Assembly: GCF_002234675.1 (NCBI RefSeq)
Contig: NC_019867.2
Span: forward strand, 4,854,001 to 4,918,000
Direction: 5' to 3'
DNA: 64,000 nucleotides
DNA from: Oryzias latipes
Taxonomy: Eukaryota > Chordata > Actinopteri > Beloniformes > Adrianichthyidae
Below are positions 15,635 through 57,690 of the stretch, piece after piece. Each line of letters begins with the position of its first letter. Position 1 is the stretch's first letter. A model generated the notes under the pieces. That model did no database searches. It was given only the letters and a program-made list of their open reading frames with translations, and was not told the DNA's origin. The position numbers were made by a program, and so were the translations under genes.

Positions 15635-17173
15635 GGAGAGTGCTGATTAATAGGGTAGTGGAGGGAACTGAGTGTATGATTGGTGAAGAGCAGTGTGGTT
15701 TCAGGAGAGGTAGAGGGTGTGTGGATCAGGTGTTTGTTGTGAGACAGGTGTGTGAAAAGTTTTTGGCTAAGGGGAGGGAGGTGTTTTGGGCATTCATGGA
15801 TTTAGAGAAGGCGTATGATAGGATTGATAGAGAGGCGTTGTGGGTGGTGTTGAGTATGTATGGTATTGATGGTAGATTGTTGGAAGGTGTGAAGAGTTTT
15901 TATAGAAACAGTAAAGCGTGTGTGAGAGTGGGAAATAGCATGAGTGATTGGTTTCCTGTGAGGGTTGGTCTGCGCCAGGGATGCGTGATGTCTCCGTGGT
16001 TGTTTAACGTGTATTTGGATGGTGTGGTAAAAGAGGTGAATGAAAGGGTGTCGGGTACGGGTGTGAGCATGATAAATACTGACGGCAGCGAATGGAGTGT
16101 GAATCAGTTGCTGTTTGCAGATGATACTGCACTAGTGGCTGACTCAGAAGAGAGCTTGGCACGTCTGGTTGAGGAGTTTGGAAGGGTGTGCGACAGAAGG
16201 AAGTTGAGAGTGAATGTGGAAAAGAGTAAGGTGATGAGGTGTACGAGGTTAAAGGGTGAACGTAGATTGAATGTGGCATTAAATGGGGAGCTGTTGGAAG
16301 AGGTAGAGTGTTTTCAGTATTTGGGGTCGTGTGTCTGTGTGGATGGTGGAATGGGGGGAGAGGTAGAGTTTAGAATGAATGAAGTACGAAAGATATGGGG
16401 GGTAATGAAGAGAGTGTTTGAATGTAGGTCACTGGGAAAGGATGCAAAAAGGAGATTGTATGAGGGTGTGGTGGTGCCTGCAGCGTTATATGGGGCTGAA
16501 ACATGGAGTCTGAAAGTGGCGGAAAAGAGGAAGCTGAATGTAGTTGAGATGAGATGTTTGAGGAGTATGTGTGGTGTGACGCGTATGGATCGTGTGAGAA
16601 ATGAAGTTATCCGAGAGAGAACTGGTGTGACGCAAGAGTTGGCTGAAAGAGCAGAGCAAAAGGCACTGGGATGGTTTGGACATGTTGAAAGAATGGAAAG
16701 GGAGCGATTGGTGAAAAGGGTATACAAATCTGATGTGAGTGGAGTGAGAATGAGAGGAAGACCGCGAATGGGATGGACAGAGGGTGTAAGAAGAGCGTTG
16801 AATGCAAGAGGGATGACTGTGGTGGAGGGGAGAGAGGCTGCTCAGGACAGGGATGTGTGGAGAGAGTTTGTCTATGGATGAATGGATGGGTGTGGTAGAG
16901 GTCTGGTCTTGGGATGAAGCGGCAAGGGGAAACCAGCCTTGGCTGAGGCCCTGCTGTGGAGGTGCCCACACTGGGCTGTGCAGCTGACCCTGGTGCAGTG
17001 TGGTGTGGCTTAGACCAGACCTCAGACCAGTCGCACGCACATACGCACACACGCACTCACACACTGAAGGAGGAGGGTTTGGGGAAGAGACAGAGGGAGC
17101 TAAAATTGTGTGCCTTGTCTAGGCTACCCCACCTTGGTGGGACACAGCCTTGGTAAATAAAAAAAAAAAAAAA
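15635..17173 (+). mobile_element. young 5'-truncated non-LTR retrotransposon with 34-bp target-site duplication
   Basis: The insert is flanked by an identical 34-bp repeat at 15601-15634 and 17174-17207, beginning ATTATATGTTTAG and ending CCAGTAATG. It ends in an A-rich tail (GGTAAATAAA plus a run of A up to 17173). It is truncated at the 5' end, so only the C-terminal part of the polymerase protein remains. The identical duplication and open frame indicate recent insertion. The clade is uncertain; the protein looks RTE/Jockey-like rather than L1. Confidence 0.93.
15640..16881 (+). CDS. LINE reverse transcriptase, C-terminal part (5' truncated)
   Basis: The open frame enters directly from the insertion point, so the first in-frame GTG at 15640 is not a true start. 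Reverse transcriptase motifs in order, counted from 15640: fingers motif GEEQCGFRRGRG at residues 15-26, block A FMDLEKAYDRID at 52-63, block B GLRQGCVMSPWLFN at 110-123, and catalytic FADD at 159-162. The C-terminal part has the conserved YGAETWSL and WFGHVERM segments. The frame is free of stops through TGA at 16879-16881. The upstream endonuclease domain is absent because of truncation, so this copy cannot mobilise itself. Confidence 0.9.
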   Translation: MLINRVVEGTECMIGEEQCGFRRGRGCVDQVFVVRQVCEKFLAKGREVFWAFMDLEKAYDRIDREALWVVLSMYGIDGRLLEGVKSFYRNSKACVRVGNSMSDWFPVRVGLRQGCVMSPWLFNVYLDGVVKEVNERVSGTGVSMINTDGSEWSVNQLLFADDTALVADSEESLARLVEEFGRVCDRRKLRVNVEKSKVMRCTRLKGERRLNVALNGELLEEVECFQYLGSCVCVDGGMGGEVEFRMNEVRKIWGVMKRVFECRSLGKDAKRRLYEGVVVPAALYGAETWSLKVAEKRKLNVVEMRCLRSMCGVTRMDRVRNEVIRERTGVTQELAERAEQKALGWFGHVERMERERLVKRVYKSDVSGVRMRGRPRMGWTEGVRRALNARGMTVVEGREAAQDRDVWREFVYG

Positions 17174-17941: not shown

Positions 17942-20900
17942 ATGCAAAGTGGTAAGTACTCCCCTGCCTTTCTCTTGTTTCTGTTTTGCATGGTTACCAC
18001 GTCTCCTTGACAGTATTTGTTTAATTATTGTTATTATTTCCAGATTCAACTCAATTTGTTACTTCTGAGCCCAACAAGGAAGTCTGCAAATTTGCAGCAC
18101 AACCGACAGTCAAATCTTTCCAGTGTGGTAAATGTACTTTAGTCTTCAAATCCAAAGTTTATCTTTTTGAGCATCTAAACAATGTGCACGACTTAGATGT
18201 GCACACTGCTCTCCAAGATGCTGGCTTGAAGTATGCAGAGGCAGACAAAAACTCAAGCTTGGAAAAAAAGCATTTTAAATGCCAGCACTGTGATTTTAAA
18301 ACTTGCCACCAGGATCTTTTTAAAAAACACAAGAAGCAGTGCCACCAAAATGAAAATGCAAACTTGACTGAAGCTTTAAGCGGCTCTGAAAACCATGAAG
18401 CGGCTGGCGTTTCAGCTGACCATCACAGAGAAGCTGCAGAATTGGAAGAGATTCCCTCGGTTCTGTCAGCTGCATCTACCTCAGAGGCAAAATGCCTCCT
18501 TGCCTCATTGAAGGACCTAAAAACCTACAAGAGACCAGCCCAAACTAATGAAAACCTTTTCAAAAATCCACCTGGATTAAACGGGACACCATGTTCGGAG
18601 GAGGCGGATGACCCAAAAGAAACTCTAATCTTGCAAGAAACCCCTGTAGCTTCCAGACCTAACAGTAGGGGTGTTTCTCGAGCAACCGTGAAATCTATGA
18701 TTGATGTTACGGTTCGTGGATGCAGTGAACTTTTGCTGACAGATCATTTGAGTGCTGGCCTGCTACCTAACCTTCCCAAGACGCAACTCACAGAACCAGG
18801 TCAGTGCAGTGTTGGAAAGAGAATCAACAATAAAAGCCTGCAAAGTCCACCTGCTAAAAAAGCAAAATTACTTCCAGAGGCAGAGCTTTCACAATTAGAA
18901 AATGCACATCCTTCCTCCTCTCCAGAGTTTTCATTTGAAGTTAGTGAGGATGAAGAAGAACAGAAAGTGAATCAAGCACACAGAGATCCACAGAACCCTG
19001 ACGTTTATTTCTGTAAGCACTGTGACTTCAGGGAGGGAGACTTCAATCTTATGTCCTTACACTATCAGAATGATCACCCTTATGTCAGATGCAACGTTGC
19101 CTACATTAACAACTCGAACGACCAGAGTGCCACGTTCCGCTGCTTGGAATGTCCATTTGAGTTTGCAAGTGCAGTTGACCTGAAGTGGCATTACACAGAA
19201 AAGCACCCAGCAGCCCCAGATGTATTCAAGTTGAAGTCAAGTGAGCTCTGCTTACTTTTTAAATGCTTCCAGTGTGATTTCGCATGTGATGCATTAAAGC
19301 CCCTACGACAGCATTACAAAGAAAGCCACCCGTCATGTAGCGTGGACAACTCTTTGTTGTTCTGTCGATATTCAGTCCCTAAATCCTCCCAAGATGATGA
19401 ATCGTGCAAGTTGCAAAAGCATGAAATATCCGCTCGTCCTGAACAATTAATTGAGAGATCCCCTGAAAGAGAACGTACATTAAGGACAGAAGTCCAGGAG
19501 ACACCTTCACCCCAATGCCCCACTCCCACTAGGCTAGAAATGCACACCTGCCAAATCTGTTCGTTTGCCCACAAGTCAGTTGTTGTAATGCATGTTCACT
19601 ACAGAAAACACCACCCAGAAGAAGCCAACAGCATAGCCAGATTAAGACAATTAGCAAGTTCCCCGTCACACTTGCCGCAGCAGACCCCCCAGAAAGAGTT
19701 GTCAAAGAAAGAAGATCCCGAACTGTCGAAGCAAAAGCGGGTTTTGTCCATTCAAGTGGAGGAAGCAGGAGCATTGACGTTTATGGACCGCATTTCAAAG
19801 GAACCTCTGGGGAGTCATCAGGGTGAAGCACAGCCTCAAACGGACGCAGAGAGCACAGAGGGCAGCCCAGCAAAAATTAAGATGAAGGAGGTGGATGCTA
19901 AAGATCTCTCCACGACTAAAGCCGATGCTTATGGAGATCCAGAAAACCTATTTTACTGTGAGACGTGTAACTATGGAAATCCGTCTATAAAAGGAATACA
20001 AAACCATCAGATCAAAATCCACAGGCATACAATTAACAATGAGTGTGTTGCTGAGTACACGTCTATGTTGTGCGATCAGATAAAGAAGTCAAAAGCAGCT
20101 GACAAGGGCTCATCATCTGCCCATCATTTACCGCTTGCCGTCCTAAATAGTGGGGATGAAAATATGTTTTTTTGCCCCATATGTAACTATAGACACGATA
20201 CTATACAAAAAGTAATGCGCCACCATTCAGCGAGGCACGGTGGCTTTTATATGAAGTCTACACACGTAGACCAATACACTTCGGCGGTTTTAAAACAGAC
20301 AAAAAAGCCCACACCAGAGATCGAAATCAAAAAGAAAGAAGAGGACAAAAAGAAACTCGACAGTCATTCCTCAGATTCACCATCGGCGAAAGTCCCACAA
20401 ACGGAGAGGGTGCTCCAATGCTACCGATGCGATTTTCATACTCCAGTTGTGTATCTGCTGAAGAAGCACTTGTTGAAGATGCACAACGTAAACCGCGCAT
20501 ACAAAGACATTATACGACTTTGCTATCGAGCCGGATCGCTAGAGTCAGGCTATCACTGCGAGTGGTGTGTCTTCAGTGACAAGACCACTGTAGCAGTGTT
20601 TGAACACTACCGAGAGCAACACCCACAAAAACAGATAAACTATCCCTACATAAACACAAAGTTATATGCCGGTCCCAAAATACTACAAACACACAAAAAG
20701 AAACCCAAGCTTGTGGAAACTACCAATTATTCTACATCTGAAAAGAAACGCTCGGATCACCAGAGAAACGAAAAGCCAAGTTCAAGCAACCAGGTGGAAG
20801 ACCTCAGCAAAATACCAGGATTATTTGAATCTTTCCAGGTGCCTCTAGATGACACGGATGACCAAACATTATCCACCTCCGAAAAGTTCAAGTGTCCTTC

Positions 20901-23900
20901 CTGCCCGCAGAGTTTTAGGTCCCAAAGCAACCTGAGTGCTCACTGTGGAACCGAACACAAGGATGTGGTTGATGATTCCACAGAGATGAGCAAAAGCCAA
21001 ACGCAAGCAGCAATGCGTCTTCAAGTACACGTCTTCAAGTGTGTGCATTGTCCCTACATCAACACAATGTACCAGGGAGTTCTCACTCACAGCCAGATGA
21101 AGCATCCTACCTTAATACCAGAGATGGACACTCTGCTCCTGGATGTCAAAAATCTGCGCAACTGGGAGGAATACACAAAGAAGAAAGAATGCGGGGAGAC
21201 TCCCAAGGTTTATGGATACATCTGTGAAAAATGTCAGCGAATCTTTGTAACACTGAAAAAACTAAAGAGGCACTGTAGCACAATCCACCAGTCAGGTGAG
21301 TCAAACCCCGTCCAAGATGAAGACGCTTCATCGCCTAAGCCCCATGGCAACAAAGGATCTGTCCCCACGGCCTCGTTTTTGAGCAAGAAAAAGTACGGTA
21401 AGATAAGGTGCCAGCACTGCTCGTACATCTGCAGCACTAAAATGGCGCTCAGTCAACACTTACATATTCACCATAAGTCTTTTGCTCCTAAGGGTACTTT
21501 CAAATGTTCTCTGTGTTCTCACGTCTACTACCACAAGAAGAAACTAAAGTCCCATTACATTAAAGACCATGACAAGAGTGCATACTTAAAATACTACCTG
21601 CCATTATGCAAAAAGTACAATAAAGAGTCAGATGAATTATCTCAGGACTCATCAGCTCAGCAACCAAAAACTGACTCCACAGAGGGTAGAAAGGTGTTCT
21701 TGAAGTGTCCAGTCTGTCCCTATTTCAATACGCGGCACCATGGTACTCTCACTCACTGCCAGATGAAGCATCCGGATGTTTTCGTGAGGGCAAACGAGCT
21801 TGAAACACAGGAAATGCTTCTATCTGAGCTATCAGGCTGTTTGATTGGAAAAAACTCCAGTGAAGGTGGGTATATGTGTGACGAATGTGGAGGCATTTTG
21901 AAGTCATTTAAGAAGTTTAAAACCCACTGTCAGAGGCACCACAAGGGGGAAAACGTTTCCAGACCACCGAAGGACGTAGAGGTGGAAAGAACTCCTGCTA
22001 AACTCCCCCCAGTGTTGGCAAAGAAGTCTCCATCTCCAGCTAAGGTCACAGAAGCAGCTAAGGTCACAGAAGCTGCTTCCAGTTTGACCGATCTTGAGTC
22101 GAGTCCTTCCAAGGCATCCCCCAAGGAAGTACAACGTGCGTACAAATGCCAGCTCTGCCCCCACGAAACCACCTGTCGAAAGTACCTGCGCAGCCACTAC
22201 CAAAATACGCACAAACTGGACGGAATTACCACGTACAAGTTTTTGGAGAAGTACAACCGCCGTAAACGCAGTTACCTAAGGATGTGCGGGGCGGGTGAAA
22301 AGCACAAATACGTTCGAGGTGAAGAAAGCTTCACAGTCAAGTGTCAGCAGTGTCCAGACTTAGTGCTAGACTCCCACCAGTTGCTTATTGAACACTACAG
22401 TCATTTTCACGGCCTGGGCAGCAAACTGGACTTTAAAGTGCTATCTTTTGGCGTACGAAAGGGCAGCACGGGAATCTACAAATGTTACCATTGTTTGACG
22501 AAATTGTACGGCACCAGAAAGCTCCACTATCACTTGGATCGGCACAGAGCCAAGATGGTGGAGTTGACAAAAGCTTTGCTGAAGAAGGAACCAGCTGTGG
22601 ACCCGGTAGCATCTGGAACACAAGTAAGTTTGGACGTTAGAGTTCTTGCGTTCGCAGTTTCCTCTGACTCATCTGATCTCTGTTGTTGTTTACGTCGTCA
22701 AGCAGGATAAGCTGTCTCCATTTGGAAATGTGACGGAGCTCGGTCAGCGGAAGATCTCATCTGTAGAGGCCGTCGCTCCGTCGTCCCCTGTGAGCGGAGC
22801 CAACATAAAGGTGGACGCAGAGGCAGAGAAAGACGGGCACGCCTGCAAGCAGTGTGGTAGAACATTTATGTCGCTGAGCGGCCTCCATTCACACGAGCAA
22901 AGCCATGCAGCGCTGGCAGCTATCGAGAAGCTGGACCATCTGTCCACCTCAGGAGAGAAACTCAAGTGAGAGAAAACTGTCATTTTGTAATTTCCTTTTT
23001 AATATAACAATGAACCATAAGCCTGTATGCAGTGGTCCCTTGCTATATTGCTTTATTTTGTGGATCTTAGTGCAATTTTGTTTGTTTTATATAGTGCCTT
23101 TTGTTCTGCGTCCTGATTGGCTGCAGACTAATGTCAATCAATCTCCTTCATGCGTGTCTCTTGCACAACACAGAATGCATGCAGCTAGAAAAATGTACAT
23201 AAATATTCACTTGCTGGCAGATTTTTGGTTTTGTTCTATAACACTGAACTGTGATTTTTTTTTTCCATAAATCTTGGTGAGAAAAGTATAAAAATGTTAG
23301 TCTCGAAAGTGTGTAGTAAAGGGTTTACAGCAGAAAAAATATAGTTCACTTGAGGGCTGGACGATTAATCAATTTAGTTGATTTTTCGTATTTTAGACCA
23401 TTTATTTTTCGGAAAATCTTGATGGGAGTAAAGCCCGTCTCTCGCAAAGCGCAGATGTGAAGAGAGCAGCAGGCAAAGAGGAGCTTTTCCCGTGAGGCTG
23501 AGGGGGAAAAAACACACTAGTGCACGTGTATTTATAAAAAATATATTTTATAAATATAATAAGAGGCACTTTGTATGAAACTTTATTAGTAGTACCCCTG
23601 TAACATTACAGAGTTTGTTGTTGAGCTTTAAAAAAAATAGTCTTCCCCCCTCCCCCCCTGCTGCATCTTTATGGTTATTGGCAAGAACCCAATAATCGTG
23701 TTTTTAGGCCGTTTTTGTTATAACTTCATGTAAAAAGGAATCAACTGGAGGCAGAATTGGGGGGAGAATCTGCTCCTCTTTAGTAAATGTGTCCTTGTTT
23801 TCTCAGCGGGTTTGAGTTTCACCGTTGGTTGAGACTACAGGTGACGGGCTGAAACCCCTCTTCTCATGGGGGCGTTTTTCAGCAAGAAAACAGAAACCAC

Positions 23901-32800: not shown

Positions 32801-35800
32801 ATGTCAGGTGTGACAGAGGATGGGGGCTCCTTCTCCTCCAAGGTCATCCGGATGGTCTTTGTCATCCTGCTGCTGGACCTGCTGGGATTCACCCTGATTC
32901 TACCTCTGCTGCCCTCCATCCTGGACCACTACGCCCAAACTGGGGTGCGTGGAAGCAAAGTTCCCCCCAAACAATGGGATATCTGTGTGGATGAATCCAC
33001 AGCTCATGAGTGATTAGTTTTGGAGGGGGGGGGGGCTGCATGCTGACTCATGCTGAAGCAGCTTGGTGATTTTATTTTTTCGCAGGATGCCACATACCAG
33101 TCTCTGCAGAACGTGGTGGGTTGGTTCAGGGCGGCCGTTGGGATTCCCATGGAAAAGAAATACAACACCGTTCTGTTTGGAGGTACCGTTTGGCCCGCAC
33201 TCATCTGAAGGGGAGGCACAGATCCGGGGGTTGAACCCCTTCGTTTTATTTATTTTATTTTCTTCCAGGTCTGGTCGGGTCGCTGTTTTCCCTGCTGCAG
33301 TTCTTATCCTCACCTGTGACGGGGGTTCTGTCAGACCGCCATGGCCGACGACCACTGCTAATCCTGACCACTGTGAGATGTCACAGTTAAATACTGATTC
33401 TTATGGATTTTGCAAATTAATTTACAGAAAGACCCACCCTGGTTACATAAAAATTTGTTTTTTTTGGGGTGTTTTAACATGTTTTTGTGGCATTTCTCTT
33501 TCGATGAAGGACATTTATTGGAAAGTAGAGCTTAAAATTGCATTTCTGAGTAGTTTTTATTCAAATTGTTGTGAATCCGGAGCCATTAAAAAAAAGGAAG
33601 TTTAAAAAAGATCAAATTTGCGACGTAGAAAATACGAAACCGAGTATGACGACTTTGTCTGAGCTGGAATCCGCCTCAAAACTGTACGTCCGGATAGCTC
33701 AAATATTGCTCCCCATTTTTGCTGCGCTGGTAATATTTGCTTGGGGGTGTGGGGCAGCATGTAAATAGAGAGCTCTCAGCAAAGGGGGGAGAGGAAGAGG
33801 AAGGGTTGGGGGGTGGGGTTTCTCCACACCTATGGTCCCACCCACAACTGAGAGGGAAAATTCTACTTATTTTAGTCATTTGTTTATTTTTTTATTGAAC
33901 ATTTGCAGAATATAATGCAAAAATGCAACATTTATAACAACACAATATCAGAATAGAACACAGTTCTGAATTCAGAATACAATTGTTTTAACCTTATGAA
34001 AATCTTAATTATTAAGAAAAAAATTATAAGTAATATAGATTTTTTTAAACAAACTGGTGTTCAATAATATCCAAATAAAGAAATCACAGAAAGAATTAAT
34101 AAGTAACTAAAAATAGAAAATAAAAAAAGAAATAAAAGAAGAAGAAGAAAAAAAGAGGTGAATTTCTAATGAACTACTGCCGCTCTGCAGAAACTATGTC
34201 CTGGCTGAAAACGGCACAATCACAACAACAAAAAAACACTGCGAAGGCTTTCAAAATGGATCCAAAGAGGGTCAGAGTGGGTCTTTAGGGCAAGTTTGTT
34301 CTTGCTGCAAAAAAAAGAACAGGTTTCTATAAAGTTAGAGAGGCGATTGGTTTGATCGGCTGCTTTGCGTTTCAGGTGGGGCTCATATCCTCCTACGTCG
34401 TGTGGGCCGTTTCCCGCAGCTTCAGCATGTTCCTTTTGTTCCGTGTGATTGGGGGCATTTTTAAGGGCAACGTCAGCCTCTGCACCGCCGTCGTAGCCGA
34501 CCTGCCTTGCCCAAAAGCACGCAACAGAGGAATGGTGAGAGAGCTTATAATGGCCCTCGGCACAATGTCTAACGCTGCAAACACTGAGGCACGCTGTCGG
34601 TTGAACAGGCGATGATCGGCATCGCCTTCTCCGTGGGCTTCACGGTCGGACCGCTCATGGGAGCTTACTTTGCCATCGCCTCCAGAACAACAGGGAGCGT
34701 CTTCTACCAGACGCCCGCTCTGATCGCTCTGGCGTTCAGCGTCGCCGACCTGCTCGTCATTTGGCTGATGCTGCCAGAAACGCTGACAAAGAATGTCCAG
34801 GTCAGTTTGAGAGGTTTCTGGCCTGGAGTCACGGTTTTTAAACCTTGTGGGTTTAAAAACTTACCTTTTGAGCAGGAAAGAAAATTAAATTGTGAGCAAA
34901 CACAACTCCTTGCAGGGTGTTATGTGAAAACAACCCTTCTGCTATCTTGTGGGGTCTAGATGACCCAACTCCCAATGTTAACGTGCCTTGCAGGCACGTT
35001 AACATTGGGAGTTGGGTCATCTAGACCCCACTAGACAGAGCGCCGAACCTTTTTTCTTCAATGATTTGTGATCTTCACTGGTGTCCATGGATTACATGAA
35101 ATCTTTACACTTTTATCCACCTTTGTCATTGTAGGGAGAACACGTCAATGTAAGGGTGGGGTCATCTGGACCCCATAGGAAAGCACAACTCTTAAAAAAA
35201 AAGTTCCACTTTGGAGAAAATAGTAGAAATGTAGAACTCTAGGTGTCATAAAGCTTTTATGACACAGACAAGCCCGTTATCTGTCCTTTTGTGTTGTCTT
35301 GCTCAATACCTGTAACTTCCTGGACTGCTCTGGTGACGGCAATTTACCAGGAAGTTCCTGTTGTGGATTCTGTGAAACCACGGGGAAGCAGAGTTTTCTT
35401 GTGATCAGATAAAAACAGAGCGCTGGTCTTAGATGGACAGTACTTGAGTCGGCAGTTCTGTCTGAGCGCAGAATTTAAAGAACAAAGAATGAAAAACTTT
35501 CTACAAAACAAAAAACACACACAAGTAAATCCTCACGGTGGTCCAGCTTTCCAATGACTCCATGAAGTATCCTTATTTTCCAAAAATATCAAAAATGTTT
35601 TTGTTTTTGGTTCAGGCTGCATCTTCTGGGACCGGCGACTCCAGGGATCTCCTCAGCCCGCTCTCTTTGTTCCATTTCACAGCCATCACCAGAACAAAAG
35701 ATCCGCCTTCACGGGAAAGTGAGTATGGACCGTTTCACAGGTGTTTTGTACTTATTTACCAAGCATGCATGGACTTCGGCAGGCTGATAAGAAGTAAGGA

Positions 35801-53968: not shown

Positions 53969-55207
53969 GGGGGTGGGGGGCTTAGTCCGCGATGAGCCTG
54001 GGGGGGGGGGGGGGGGTTTACTAGGCAGTGACCCCCCTCCTGTGGTTGCCGTATGGAGTGGGCCCCCCCTCTTTTGGTTTTATTTGCACCTTAGACATGT
54101 AGGGCCCTTGGTAGGGGGGGTGCTTGGACATCACTGCCAGCAAGCAGCGGATGTCCTCCTAGCACCCTACCCGCCAATTTTAACCGCACCTTAGACATTT
54201 AGGGCCCTTGGTGGGGAGGGTGAGGGGACGTCACTGTGAGTAATCAGGAGATGTCCCCTTAGTGCCCTACCTGCCAATTTTAACCGCACCCCCCTTAGTA
54301 CACACACCCCTCCCCCCTCAATATATACATCCCAACATAAACACACACACATGCACACACACACCCTTTCAAACACACATACACACATTTTGCAAGGAAG
54401 GTGGGACCTGGGTCCGTCTGTCCCCTGCCTCTTCCCTGGTGGGGGGTATCGGCCCCTTTGCAGCGGCGGCCGTGTCCCCGGGGTGCCGGCTTCCTGGGCC
54501 CGGCGGTGCTCTCTCCGCGCGGTGGGGGGGTTCACATTACATCTGAGCCGGGGGTGTCTGGTCCCTGGGGGGTGGGTTCTGGTCCTTGCTCCTGAGTGCT
54601 GGGCCCCGCCAAATTTCCAACTGTGGCCGAGCCTGGTCGGGCCATATTTACAACACCCCTTGTGGGCCCTCTTTTTTCCCCGGGGTTCCCCCCTCCTGGG
54701 CGGGGGCGGCGGGCCCCTGCCTCGCTCCTCCCTGGACCAACCGTGGGCCGGGCGGGTGGCTGCCTGTAGTGCGGGGCGGGTCTCCCTTGGGGGGTCCTGG
54801 CTCGTATCTGGGGTTGGGGCGGGGGGATGCCCGGAACTCCTGGGTGGTGGTGGGGTGCTCGTTTGGGGCTGTGGGCGTCCTTCTCCGGTGGGGCCCTGCG
54901 TTGGGTTCTCCCGGCGCGGCGGGGGGGCTGCTCTCCTGGTTGGCCTGGGGCGGCGCTCTCTTTCCCTCCGTGCGTCCCTGGCCTCTGGCTCTGGGGGCCT
55001 TGCGGCGGCCCTGCTGGCCCTGGCCTGGGTGGCGGGCTTGGTCGCCCGGGGGGCGGTTGTTCCCTGCCTGTTCCCGTATGGCGTTGGGGGGATTCCGGCT
55101 GCCGCTGCTGCTGCGGTGGGGGTCTTGGGGTGGGGGTGGCTGGGCACTCTCCCTCCTTCTTTTCACGTTCCACCATCCATTTTAGAAGAACATAAACACT
55201 CACCTGA
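53969..55207. repeat. GC-rich repeat island
   Basis: About 1.2 kb of strongly G-rich (plus strand) DNA, sharply different from its AT-rich surroundings, with runs of G (54001-54016) and a CA-rich patch (54301-54390). Overlapping long open frames on both strands reflect the lack of AT-rich stop codons, with Pro/Gly/Arg/Ala-biased translations and no domain. It may belong, with 57690-57960, to a larger element that received the Penelope insertion (inference). Confidence 0.55.
54088..54287 (+). repeat. tandem duplication, two 100-bp units
   Basis: Units start at 54088 and 54188 with ACCTTAGACATKTAGGGCCC and end with GCCAATTTTAACCGC before 54188 and 54288, an exact 100-bp period. They differ by substitutions and small changes in the middle. 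Confidence 0.85.
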
Positions 55208-55497
55208 GCACAGGTGTTAGCTCACCTTTGCACTTACAGTGTATATGATTGAATGACTGAAATATTTCACACTAGTTGGTTTTAAGGCATAAGTATGCAT
55301 GTGAACACTATCTGTTTTGTGTACATGTCGACAGGTGGACATTTTTGCAGCTAGCAGGTTGTGTTTATAACATTTGAGTGTGTGTGTGGACAGGCTCCGC
55401 CCCTTTTTTTTCTTTTTTTTTTTTCTACATTTGAACCTTACCATAATTAAGCACTTAAATTGTTTTTTTATCAGACACTGGGTTTGTTTTGTGTAAA
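55208..55497. other. spacer between the GC island and the Penelope element
   Basis: AT-rich DNA with a GTGTGTGTGG patch and a T-run (55404-55424). It may include the 3' end of the Penelope element or the continuing host repeat; the boundary is unclear. Confidence 0.35.
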
Positions 55498-55546
55498 ACC
55501 TACCGACATGTTTCGGCGGAATGCCTTCCACCTTCGTCAGGGTCGT
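55498..55546 (-). ncRNA. hammerhead-ribozyme-like motif in the Penelope 3' region
   Basis: On the minus strand: core CUGACGA (55535-55541), an extra A, a 7-bp stem GGUGGAA/UUCCGCC with a GGCA loop, GAAA, a minimal stem III ACAUGU ending at U 55506, then cleavage-site C 55505. Stem I is at least 3 bp (ACC before the core with GGU after the cleavage site). The order matches type I hammerheads with a tiny stem III, a form reported in Penelope-like elements. The extra A after CUGACGA departs from the strict consensus, so activity is uncertain. Confidence 0.5.
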
Positions 55547-55603
55547 CATCAGATGGTGGCGTGTGACGTCTTTAAAAACAGCTGATTTGTGACTGAGGCG
55601 GAG

Positions 55604-57681
55604 TCACCTGTCAAACTTTGACAAGTGACTCCGCCCCTTGATGTCCGTCTTTCTCTGGAGGATGTTGCTCCAGGTGTGAGAGAGCAGGAAAGCCCCCTCA
55701 TCCTGGTTCATGGAAGTGTGGGCTCGTTTTCTGATCTCCACCGCCTCCATGATCCATCTGCGGTGTCTGTTGTCTTCGGTGCGGAGGACTTTGGCCTTTT
55801 CCCAGTCCATGATATGGTTTTCTTGTTTGCAGTGATCCGTTATGGCTGATTTCATGTTTTCTTGAACTGCCTGTTGTCGTCTGGCTCTTGTTAGTATTTT
55901 GTTTGTTTCCTTTTCGCATTCTTTTTGATGTTCTGTTTTTCTTGTGATGAAGGAGCGTCCTGTTTCTCCGATGTATGTTTTATTGCAGGTGTGACATGGG
56001 ATTTCATAAATGACATTGCATTTTTTATTTTGTTCAATCTTATCTTTTGGGTGAACCAGTAGTTGCCTGAGTTTTTTATACGGTTTCACTGGGGTGCTGA
56101 TGTGATGCTTTTTCATGGCTCTTTGGATGCGTTCTGTGATTCCTCTGATGTATGGCAATGTAACCATTCCTTTGTTTTCTGTTTTTTTCCTCAGTTTTTC
56201 CTTCTCTACTTCCTTGCATTTCCTCTGCTCCACCTGTGTTTGTCCCTTTTTTATGGCCCATTGAGGATATTGACACCTGGTTAGTGCATTTTTTATGTGT
56301 TTCTTCTCCTCCGTTTTGTCCTCCCCGTCCGTTACCAGCTCTGCACGCTCAAACAAGGTTCTTACGACAGATATTTTGTGAGTGGTAGGATGTTCTGAGG
56401 TCCATAATAAATATTGGTCTGTGTGAGTTGGTTTCCTGTGTATTTTTATTTTTATGTCTTTGTTTTCCATGTGTCTGATGTTGATGTCCAGGAAGTTGAT
56501 GGAGTTGTCTTTTTCCTCTTCATGTGTGAATTTGATTTGTCCCGTATCGTCCATCGTGTTCAAATGGTCTGTGATCTCCTGCGTGTGTCCTGCTTTGATC
56601 TTTTCCAGAATGTCGTCGACGTAGCGTTTCCACAAGGTTGGACGGCAGTGCTCTGGTGCGGATGTTATTGCTCTCTTTTCCAGGTCCTCCATGAAAAAGC
56701 TGCACATTGTGGCTGATAGTGGGTCGCCCATGGGAAAGCCTTCTTTTTGTCTGTAAATTGTGTTACGGTATTGGAAATACGTGGATGTAGTAATTAACTG
56801 GAGGAGTTGTGTAATGTCATTAACTGTAAGGTTTGTGCGTTTCCTTAGTGATTTGTCTGCTGTTAACTGTTCCTGCACTATTTGTAGTGTGGCTTCTACT
56901 GGAGTCCTGGTGAATAATGATATTACGTCATGTGAAATGAATATCTCGTTTGCTTCCATCTTTGTGTTTTTGAGTTCTTCTGCCAGCTGTTTTGCATTTT
57001 CACAATGGTAATCTGTGTTTCCTAGGAGGGGTTTCAAAATATCTGCGATGAATTTGGATAGATTGTATGTTACTGATCCCATGCTGTCTATTATGGGCCT
57101 TAGTGGTGCTCCAGGTTTGTGTATTTTTGGAGTGCCATAGATCCGGGGGATGATGCTGGCTGTTGGTATGAGATGGTTATAGGTTTGTTTGTCTATTTTC
57201 TTTTCCTCCTGTAACTGTTTGAGTACAGTCTTGAGTTTTCTCTTCTTTGCTTCTGTGGGGTCTCTTTTCAGGACCTCATAGGTGTTCCGGTCTTGAAGCA
57301 TCTCATTCATTTGTTTTTCATATTGTTCTGTGTCCATGATGACTGTGGTTCTGCCTTTGTCTGCTGGTAGTATTGTGATTTCTCTATTGTTTTTCAGATT
57401 GTGGATGGCTGCCATTTCTTCTTTGGTTATGTTACTAGGTGGTAGTTTTGCGGTTTTGAGAATGCCTGCTATTTCATTGCGTAGTGCTGCTTTTTCTCCT
57501 GGGTCCTGTATTTTTTCACATGCTAATTCGGTGGCTACGATGAACTCCTCATGCGGGATCTGTTTTGGGGTTATGGCGTAGTTTAATCCGTGTGATAATA
57601 CACTGCGTTCAGCTTCGGATAGTGTGTGTTTTGATAGGTTGGAAATCCATTTATCATTTATGGTATTTTTTACTTACCATA
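55604..57681 (-). CDS. Penelope-like reverse transcriptase with GIY-YIG endonuclease
   Basis: The frame is open from just after an in-frame stop near 57682 down to TGA/TAA at 55604. The first ATG is at 57413-57415, but homologous-looking sequence continues about 88 codons upstream (SNLSKHTLSEAERSVLSHGL), so the true start or an upstream exon is missing. Counting from that ATG: ILPADKGRTTVIMD at 15-28, IIPRIYGTPKIHKPGAPLRP at 88-107, DVISLFTRTPVEATL at 163-177, FPMGDPLSA at 227-235 and catalytic YVDD at 265-268. A GIY-YIG nuclease follows at about 468-496 (VIYEIPCHTCNKTYIGETGR). The frame is intact, suggesting a fairly young copy. Penelope elements prime reverse transcription at nicked DNA ends. 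Confidence 0.92.
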
Positions 57682-57690
57682 ATGATTAAC

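Follow-up and report, generated by a model that had tools for sequence, protein, structure and literature searches.

Does a short motif behind a reverse transcriptase (RT) frame of the fish Oryzias latipes specify a self-cleaving RNA, and would such an RNA be cut before, after, or instead of retrotransposition? The motif lies on the minus strand of a 64,000-nucleotide stretch (assembly GCF_002234675.1, contig NC_019867.2, positions 4,854,001 to 4,918,000; hereafter the window, whose own numbering is used), where a preliminary description had proposed a hammerhead-ribozyme-like fold belonging to a Penelope element. Minimal type I hammerheads of Penelope-like elements were reportedly described by Cervera and De la Pena in 2014 and by Lunse et al. 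in 2017. Our analysis makes it quite probable that the motif is the hammerhead of the 3′ pseudo-long terminal repeat (pseudo-LTR) of a young Penelope-like family, that its cleavage would be aided by dimerization or by protein, and that the integrated copies were not shaped by cleavage. The family is very young, and since tens of its arms are nearly identical, its insertion ends can be placed with almost single-base precision, and the role of the ribozyme becomes a concrete question.

Read on the minus strand from 55543 to 55502, the motif is ACC-CUGACGA-A-GGUGGAA(GGCA)UUCCGCC-GAA-ACAUGU-C-GGU (parts in Table 1). It contains the whole type I core set, i.e. C3 U4 G5 A6 N7 G8 A9 ... G12 A13 A14, A15.1–U16.1, and H17, plus one extra base, A10. 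Every sequence element that the preliminary description had listed is present, namely CUGACGA, GAA, ACAUGU, the cleavage triplet, and the ACC/GGU stem I. Its stem II hairpin does have 7 bp, closing the loop GGCA, but was called perfect, while one of the pairs is G–U. Stem III amounts to a single pair closing the palindromic CAUG. Judged by its sequence, the site is a hammerhead ribozyme of type I whose stem III is just a palindromic hexamer; the core, the pairing, the element anatomy, and the literature all agree with the earlier assignment to a type I hammerhead with a very short stem III in a Penelope-like element. The core placement agrees as well with the cleavage position proposed there, and the RNA would be expected to cleave itself between 55505 and 55504.

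The hammerhead does lie downstream of an RT gene, as had been described: the frame carries an RT domain (PF00078, RVT_1, E=7.1e-8, above cut-off) and its stop codon is at 55606–55604. This is only part of the arrangement, since the motif belongs to a 3′ pseudo-LTR and a second hammerhead precedes the gene in the full-length copy L193; the window shows the downstream one alone because its copy is 5′-truncated. In L193, an inverted arm is followed by an 878-residue frame flanked by two pseudo-LTRs, each with a hammerhead; the hammerhead cores lie at 839 and 3530, and an inverted one at 609. The similarity of the window copy to L193 spans 57675–55446, with 99.8% identity over 2210 nt. The C-terminal region of the window frame resembles a GIY-YIG domain (PF01541, residues 467–541, 16.3 bits, E=0.012) below the 22.6-bit cut-off, and the GIY-YIG motif YEIPCHTCNKTYIGETGRS is visible in the protein sequence. 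Aligned locally, the two flanks show no significant similarity (68 of 300 shuffles scored at least equally), but an 11-mer in that alignment turned out to be the target-site duplication once the ends of the element had been located. With the pseudo-LTR pair and the inverted arm seen in copies elsewhere and the short target duplication at the window copy, the host has the anatomy of a canonical Penelope-like element whose two pseudo-LTRs each carry a hammerhead, and the window hammerhead is that of the 3′ pseudo-LTR. The 20-bp hairpin on the 5′ side of the pseudo-LTR was counted 75 times in the window and in the loci from L193 upward (overlapping loci counted repeatedly), in 20 distinct versions that include a few compensating pairs, e.g. 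in L217. Near the element, at 54078–54290, there are also two tandem 100-bp units that are ~80% alike.

Chance accounts poorly for the motif. A strict descriptor, shaped after the site had been seen, found one site in the window; in 908 Mb of sequence simulated with a first-order Markov model of the window it found one as well, a chance rate of 7e-5 per 64 kb, and a loose descriptor returned the same single window site with 0.12 expected. Pattern searches covered the window's whole genome, 734 Mb in 25 contigs. The pattern CTGANGAN{8,40}GAAACATGTC gave 263+157 (=420) matches compared to 5+4 (=9) for the reversed pattern, with some copies matching twice because an upstream CTGATGA fits too, and a tighter pattern with two stem III bases left free gave 111+101 compared to 0+0. 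Among the 212 matches to the tighter pattern, 97 of the 100 listed carry ACATGT, two bases of which were not fixed. Over a 124-nt region, 34 of 41 scored matches, window copy included (40 of 394 candidates were scored), are identical, suggesting that the Penelope-like family carrying the hammerhead is very young.

For the pairing, 60 stretches were fetched around listed sites, and with the window 76 GAAACATGTC sites were inspected. Of these, 65 (45 distinct sequences) could be aligned, with the core at the expected distance and at most one mismatch; at least one of the short-spacing sites among them, L252, is probably a chance match. Pairs were counted on 41 distinct rows, i.e. the 45 minus four short-spacing rows. 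Standard pairs fill 89.2% of the 399 pair cells, and 36 cells are changed on both sides. The covariation score is 0.246 compared to 0.161 after shuffling (0 of 500 shuffles as high) and at most 0.094 for slid versions, with exchanges in stem I (C–G 22/U–A 12) and in stem II (G–C 29/A–U 11 and C–G 13/U–A 11). Thirteen hand-picked diverged copies were compared with L193: the identity is 0.81 within the 36-nt hammerhead, 0.46 in the bases directly downstream, and 0.66 at −60..−19, a comparison that is only suggestive, as 16 of the 36 hammerhead positions are largely fixed by the pattern and several of the 13 rows end just upstream, where their bases are non-element. The comparison of genomic copies proposed in the preliminary description did not refute the hammerhead: among sites chosen with a pattern in which most core bases are fixed, the copies retain the core and the pairing of stems I and II, with exchanges on both sides.

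The extra A had been regarded as a mark of either a decayed copy or a variant, and the copies speak for the variant. In each of the 65 aligned sites the base behind the core is an A. When the 36 sites with at least four contiguous stem II pairs were scored separately, the best fit was exactly one extra base, A, in 36 of 36; this evidence was drawn from the fetched sites. All 34 matches identical over 124 nt carry it too. These data mark the extra A as a standing family feature and not damage, and A10 would be a tolerated, fixed part of the family's version of the core. Among viral contigs of IMG/VR, 64 loci fetched for an extra A yielded four convincing and one doubtful complete hammerheads. 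Four IMG/VR loci (L005, L009, L021, and L024) have complete type I hammerheads with the same A10, and L024 has two hammerheads ~390 bases apart, one with A10 and the other with U10. In 80 IMG/VR loci (L065–L144), drawn from at least 120 matches, 70 sites fit a complete type I hammerhead descriptor, some of them lying in pairs (L097, L113, L125, and L128).

The insertion ends carry no hammerhead-trimming signature at either end in the sampled loci, which is new here. Arm ends were taken from 39 loci (L193–L201 and L253–L282), a sample that favours near-identical copies and in which BLAST ends err by a few bases. The 45 distinct 3′ arm ends past the cleavage site fall at +39..+42 (13), +52..+61 (11), and +89..+96 nt (21), and none is at the cleavage site; the window copy ends at approximately +57 to +59. 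None of the 37 distinct arm starts in these loci (0 of 57 before overlap removal) lies within 5 nt of the cleavage site. Six arms (L193, L194, L195, L196, L273, and L276) run through the start of the open reading frame (ORF) and on beyond the cleavage site of the 5′ hammerhead, and other arms stop within the ORF, e.g. L197, L254, and L265. The starts of L195, L196, L201, and L273 (about 87–100% identity to L193) agree within 3 nt at L193:737–739, just before the 20-bp hairpin, and this shared start is possibly the RNA 5′ end. Directly after the cleavage site, the AC-rich stem-loop shares GGU with stem I, and so competes with it; it ends at +24, and the copies end beyond, in or past an A-run. 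The A-run (L193:910–920 and copies, about 6 to 20 long) is downstream of the hammerhead, at the first arm-end cluster. As no arm ends or starts at the cleavage site, the sampled insertions derive from RNA that was untrimmed at the hammerhead, i.e. uncut, or cut and rejoined, since rejoined RNA such as a circle would look alike.

Table 1. Features of the Penelope-like copy in the window and of its predicted hammerhead
Feature	Position	Strand	Basis or remark
Open frame, 690 codons with stop: RT (RVT_1) and GIY-YIG-like C-terminal region	55604..57673	minus	5′-truncated compared to the 878-residue L193 frame
Whole inserted copy, 5′-truncated, single pseudo-LTR at 3′ end	55448..57672	minus	bounded by 11-bp duplications
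Target-site duplication ATTATGGTAAG, 5′ side, 11 bp	57673..57683	minus	sequence
Target-site duplication ATTATGGTAAG, 3′ side, 11 bp	55437..55447	minus	sequence
20-bp near-perfect hairpin, 5′ side of pseudo-LTR, overlapping the RT stop codon	55595..55637	minus	dG −37.4, z −9.4
Minimal type I hammerhead (predicted)	55502..55543	minus	sequence, chance rate, genome copies, pair counts
Stem I 5′ strand ACC	55543–55541	minus	sequence
Core CTGACGA	55540–55534	minus	sequence
Extra A (A10), between A9 and stem II	55533	minus	sequence
Stem II GGTGGAA	55532–55526	minus	pairs with TTCCGCC 55521–55515
GAA	55514–55512	minus	sequence
Palindromic stem III hexamer ACATGT	55511–55506	minus	sequence
Cleavage base C (C17)	55505	minus	sequence
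Stem I 3′ strand GGT	55504–55502	minus	sequence; stem I is 3 bp
Predicted cleavage site, between 55505 and 55504	55504..55505	minus	from the hammerhead core
AC-rich stem-loop directly after the cleavage site	55481..55504	minus	predicted in 91-, 161-, and 241-nt folds

Several results weigh against an active hammerhead conserved by its structure. Eleven of the 76 inspected sites were excluded as unlike the alignment, and the genome rows were retrieved with a pattern fixing most of the core and GAAACATGTC, so that conservation of the core was not freely sampled. Two of five pairing measures fail to exceed shuffles, i.e. how many pairs change on both sides (4; 369 of 500 shuffles as high) and how many further pair types occur (12; 254 of 500). 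Position 3 has a non-standard pair in 14 of 41 rows in stem I and likewise in stem II, where most of the 14 unpaired cells belong to a subfamily with a C.A mismatch. Many exchanges coincide with the division of the copies into a 36-nt class and a 35-nt one, leaving few independent events. Furthermore, the covariance-model check that had been suggested gave little: on the motif, Rfam at gathering and relaxed thresholds returned no hammerhead match, and our own model, built from 16 phage-type hammerheads of viral contigs, gave a weak 11.5 bits (E=0.33, rank 2 of 22, filters off), with a rank-1 match that shows little agreement beyond stem I and CUGAUG. Folding energies point the same way. The minimum-energy fold of 51 nt is a hairpin pairing CUGACG with UGUCGG at −18.6 kcal/mol, compared to −12.2 for the hammerhead with stems I and II and −6.1 with the one-pair stem III, and a modelled dimer reaches −28.8 compared to −37.2 for two monomers, energies of a nearest-neighbour kind that take no account of the tertiary structure of the hammerhead core. 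Of the 41 copies, 25 have a minimum-energy fold in which core and cleavage triplet pair with each other, and just two give the first stem I pair a probability >0.5.

Part of this can be placed in context. We used as Rfam controls six viral-contig (IMG/VR) loci that read as complete hammerheads (L005, L009, L021, L024, L066, and L072). At the gathering score no hammerhead was returned in any of L005, L009, L021, and L024, and the relaxed search of all six gave one sub-threshold RAGATH-1 hammerhead match, in L066 alone; as Rfam misses complete hammerheads, its miss at the window site is uninformative and cannot refute the assignment. Our own model gave 26 to 61 bits for L005, L009, L021, L024, and L072, all outside the model, and 65 for its member L066; a low score at the window site is expected because stem III of the motif forms no hairpin. 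By itself the motif folds with no unusual stability (z −0.74). In 16 viral hammerheads core pairing occurs once and the stem I pair is in the minimum-energy fold of 5, a contrast that is not clean, as these have a stem III hairpin. Searches for the motif in viral contigs and prokaryote genomes and for the RT in viral contigs and plasmids found nothing, and a search of solved structures returned nothing relevant.

Could the motif be something other than a hammerhead under use? A chance resemblance, with which the missing Rfam match would agree, is practically refuted already by the copies, given 7e-5 expected per window and hundreds of genome matches compared to 9 or 0 with reversed patterns. 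It is scarcely credible that the extra A is an inactivating insertion in a decayed copy. Canonical hammerheads have no base at that place, and the low yield from the extra-A viral loci would fit such damage, but the A is in every aligned site, and the window copy equals 33 other matches over 124 nt, is 99.8% identical to L193, and keeps its frame open over 690 codons. Decay was set aside because of the constant extra A and the identical copies. Conservation driven by protein sequence is more arguable and still highly improbable. An ATG at 55549–55547 (L193:830), nine bases ahead of the core, opens the 878-residue frame of L193 through the hammerhead, so the motif could be a conserved N-terminus (MTTLTKVEGIPPKHVGR), and reported elements too have first codons inside pseudo-LTRs, according to the text cited (PMC3846280). 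However, 27 distinct copies, one duplicate having been removed, reach from this ATG to the next conserved one (MNFIES), and the frame between the two is open in 7 of them, interrupted by a stop in 6, and shifted in 14, in many cases by the varying length of the A-run; most of the 27 are end copies, for which no frame is needed. Just five copies, those with the ORF after the motif, bear directly on the matter: L193 is open, L194 and L195 have a stop, and L273 and L276 are shifted. In the 35-nt class, a one-base difference in the loop region of stem II leaves the pairs intact. With frames so often broken among copies, the protein-coding explanation was set aside, and the motif is, on modest numbers, best seen as an untranslated RNA element.

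A stronger competitor, which we consider possible if somewhat unlikely, is that the motif is a hammerhead-derived structural landmark for the RT or the endonuclease, positioning the tail for the start of reverse transcription, with cleavage weak or irrelevant in vivo. The insertion ends would fit, since arms neither end nor start at the cleavage site and the ends cluster 39–96 nt beyond it, and folding energy disfavours the active fold. In the account given of PAc, a Poseidon element of Anolis carolinensis, insertion in vitro has no need of cleavage, and no RNA-seq reads begin or end at the site (PMC11167929). On the other hand, the catalytic core set and the GUC triplet are kept in hundreds of copies, though the patterns demanded most of those bases, and the same source has the PAc hammerhead cleaving when protein is present (PMC11167929).

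We return to a hammerhead that would be able to cleave with help, whose cutting would leave no trace in integrated copies. With a stem III of just one pair around a palindrome, the hammerhead would most likely depend for cleavage on a partner copy bound through ACAUGU, whether on the same transcript (5′ with 3′ hammerhead) or on a second RNA, and/or on the protein that the element encodes, as described for PAc. Dimeric action, which had been suggested from the palindrome, would fit both ACATGT and the literature on Penelope-like elements. The integrated copies would derive from RNA that still carries the hammerhead and the downstream tail, where reverse transcription would begin. As these copies do not appear to be shaped by cleavage, the ribozyme would probably serve at another stage, processing or limiting multimeric or read-through transcripts; the in vivo function of Penelope-like element hammerheads is called a mystery in a review (PMC7761336). 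The folding models also allow, with considerable doubt, a self-silenced hammerhead, in which GUC-RG (the triplet and the first stem I bases) pairs with the CUGAY core and the resulting hairpin hides the active site until a dimer or the element's protein opens it. Reverse transcription, with its start beyond the cleavage site, might in this way be supplied with uncut RNA and the cutting deferred to another stage, and the fixed A10 may tune the balance.

Elsewhere in the window, another RT frame lies at 15640–16881 (RVT_1, E=1.3e-29), and zinc fingers resembling those of ZNF462 occur in a 1560-codon frame at 18028–22710. The C2H2 and ZNF462-like frames would by themselves point to a vertebrate, probably a ray-finned fish. 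At 34940–35040, Rfam matches to MIR3444 (49.8 bits, E=2.9e-07) and to mir-5892 stay below threshold and possibly mark a repeat-derived hairpin.

Compared with known systems, the window hammerhead is of a known kind, that of the minimal type I hammerheads that Penelope-like elements are described to carry (PMC6155905, PMC7761336, PMC7229834), sharing their topology, a near-absent stem III, a location in the pseudo-LTRs of tandem copies, and an action thought to be dimeric. The newt and axolotl satellite hammerheads likewise have a one-pair stem III capped by a palindromic tetraloop and act as dimers, but as described they sit in short non-autonomous tandem repeats with loop–loop contacts, whereas the window's is in an autonomous-type retroelement (PMC6155905, PMC7229834). 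For the extra base, the plus-strand hammerhead of chrysanthemum chlorotic mottle viroid offers a parallel, with an unpaired A10 between A9 and 10.1 (PMC3705267). There, according to the passages cited, A10 moderately decreases the trans-cleaving rate and a U at the same place brings a 3–4-fold gain; in contrast to the window's, it is a plant viroid ribozyme for which loop–loop contacts are described (PMC3705267). The anatomy of the host element matches the endonuclease-containing Penelope elements of Adineta vaga, which have pseudo-LTRs, a head-to-head inverted arm, short (8–10 bp) target duplications, an optional tail, and a palindrome at the pseudo-LTR 5′ end (PMC3846280). The counterpart of this palindrome in the window element is the 20-bp hairpin at 55637–55595. 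Unlike here, the word 'hammerhead' occurs nowhere in the text of that paper (PMC3846280). Finally, the PAc hammerhead also lies at the pseudo-LTR/ORF junction beside a start codon, and its reverse transcription starts downstream of it, in an AC-rich stem-loop; as reported, uncut RNA is the main substrate and template in vitro and cleavage depends on protein (PMC11167929). The window family differs from PAc in having its ATG 9 nt ahead of the core and a frame broken in many copies, and in insertions that end past the AC-rich stem-loop, in or beyond the A-run (PMC11167929).
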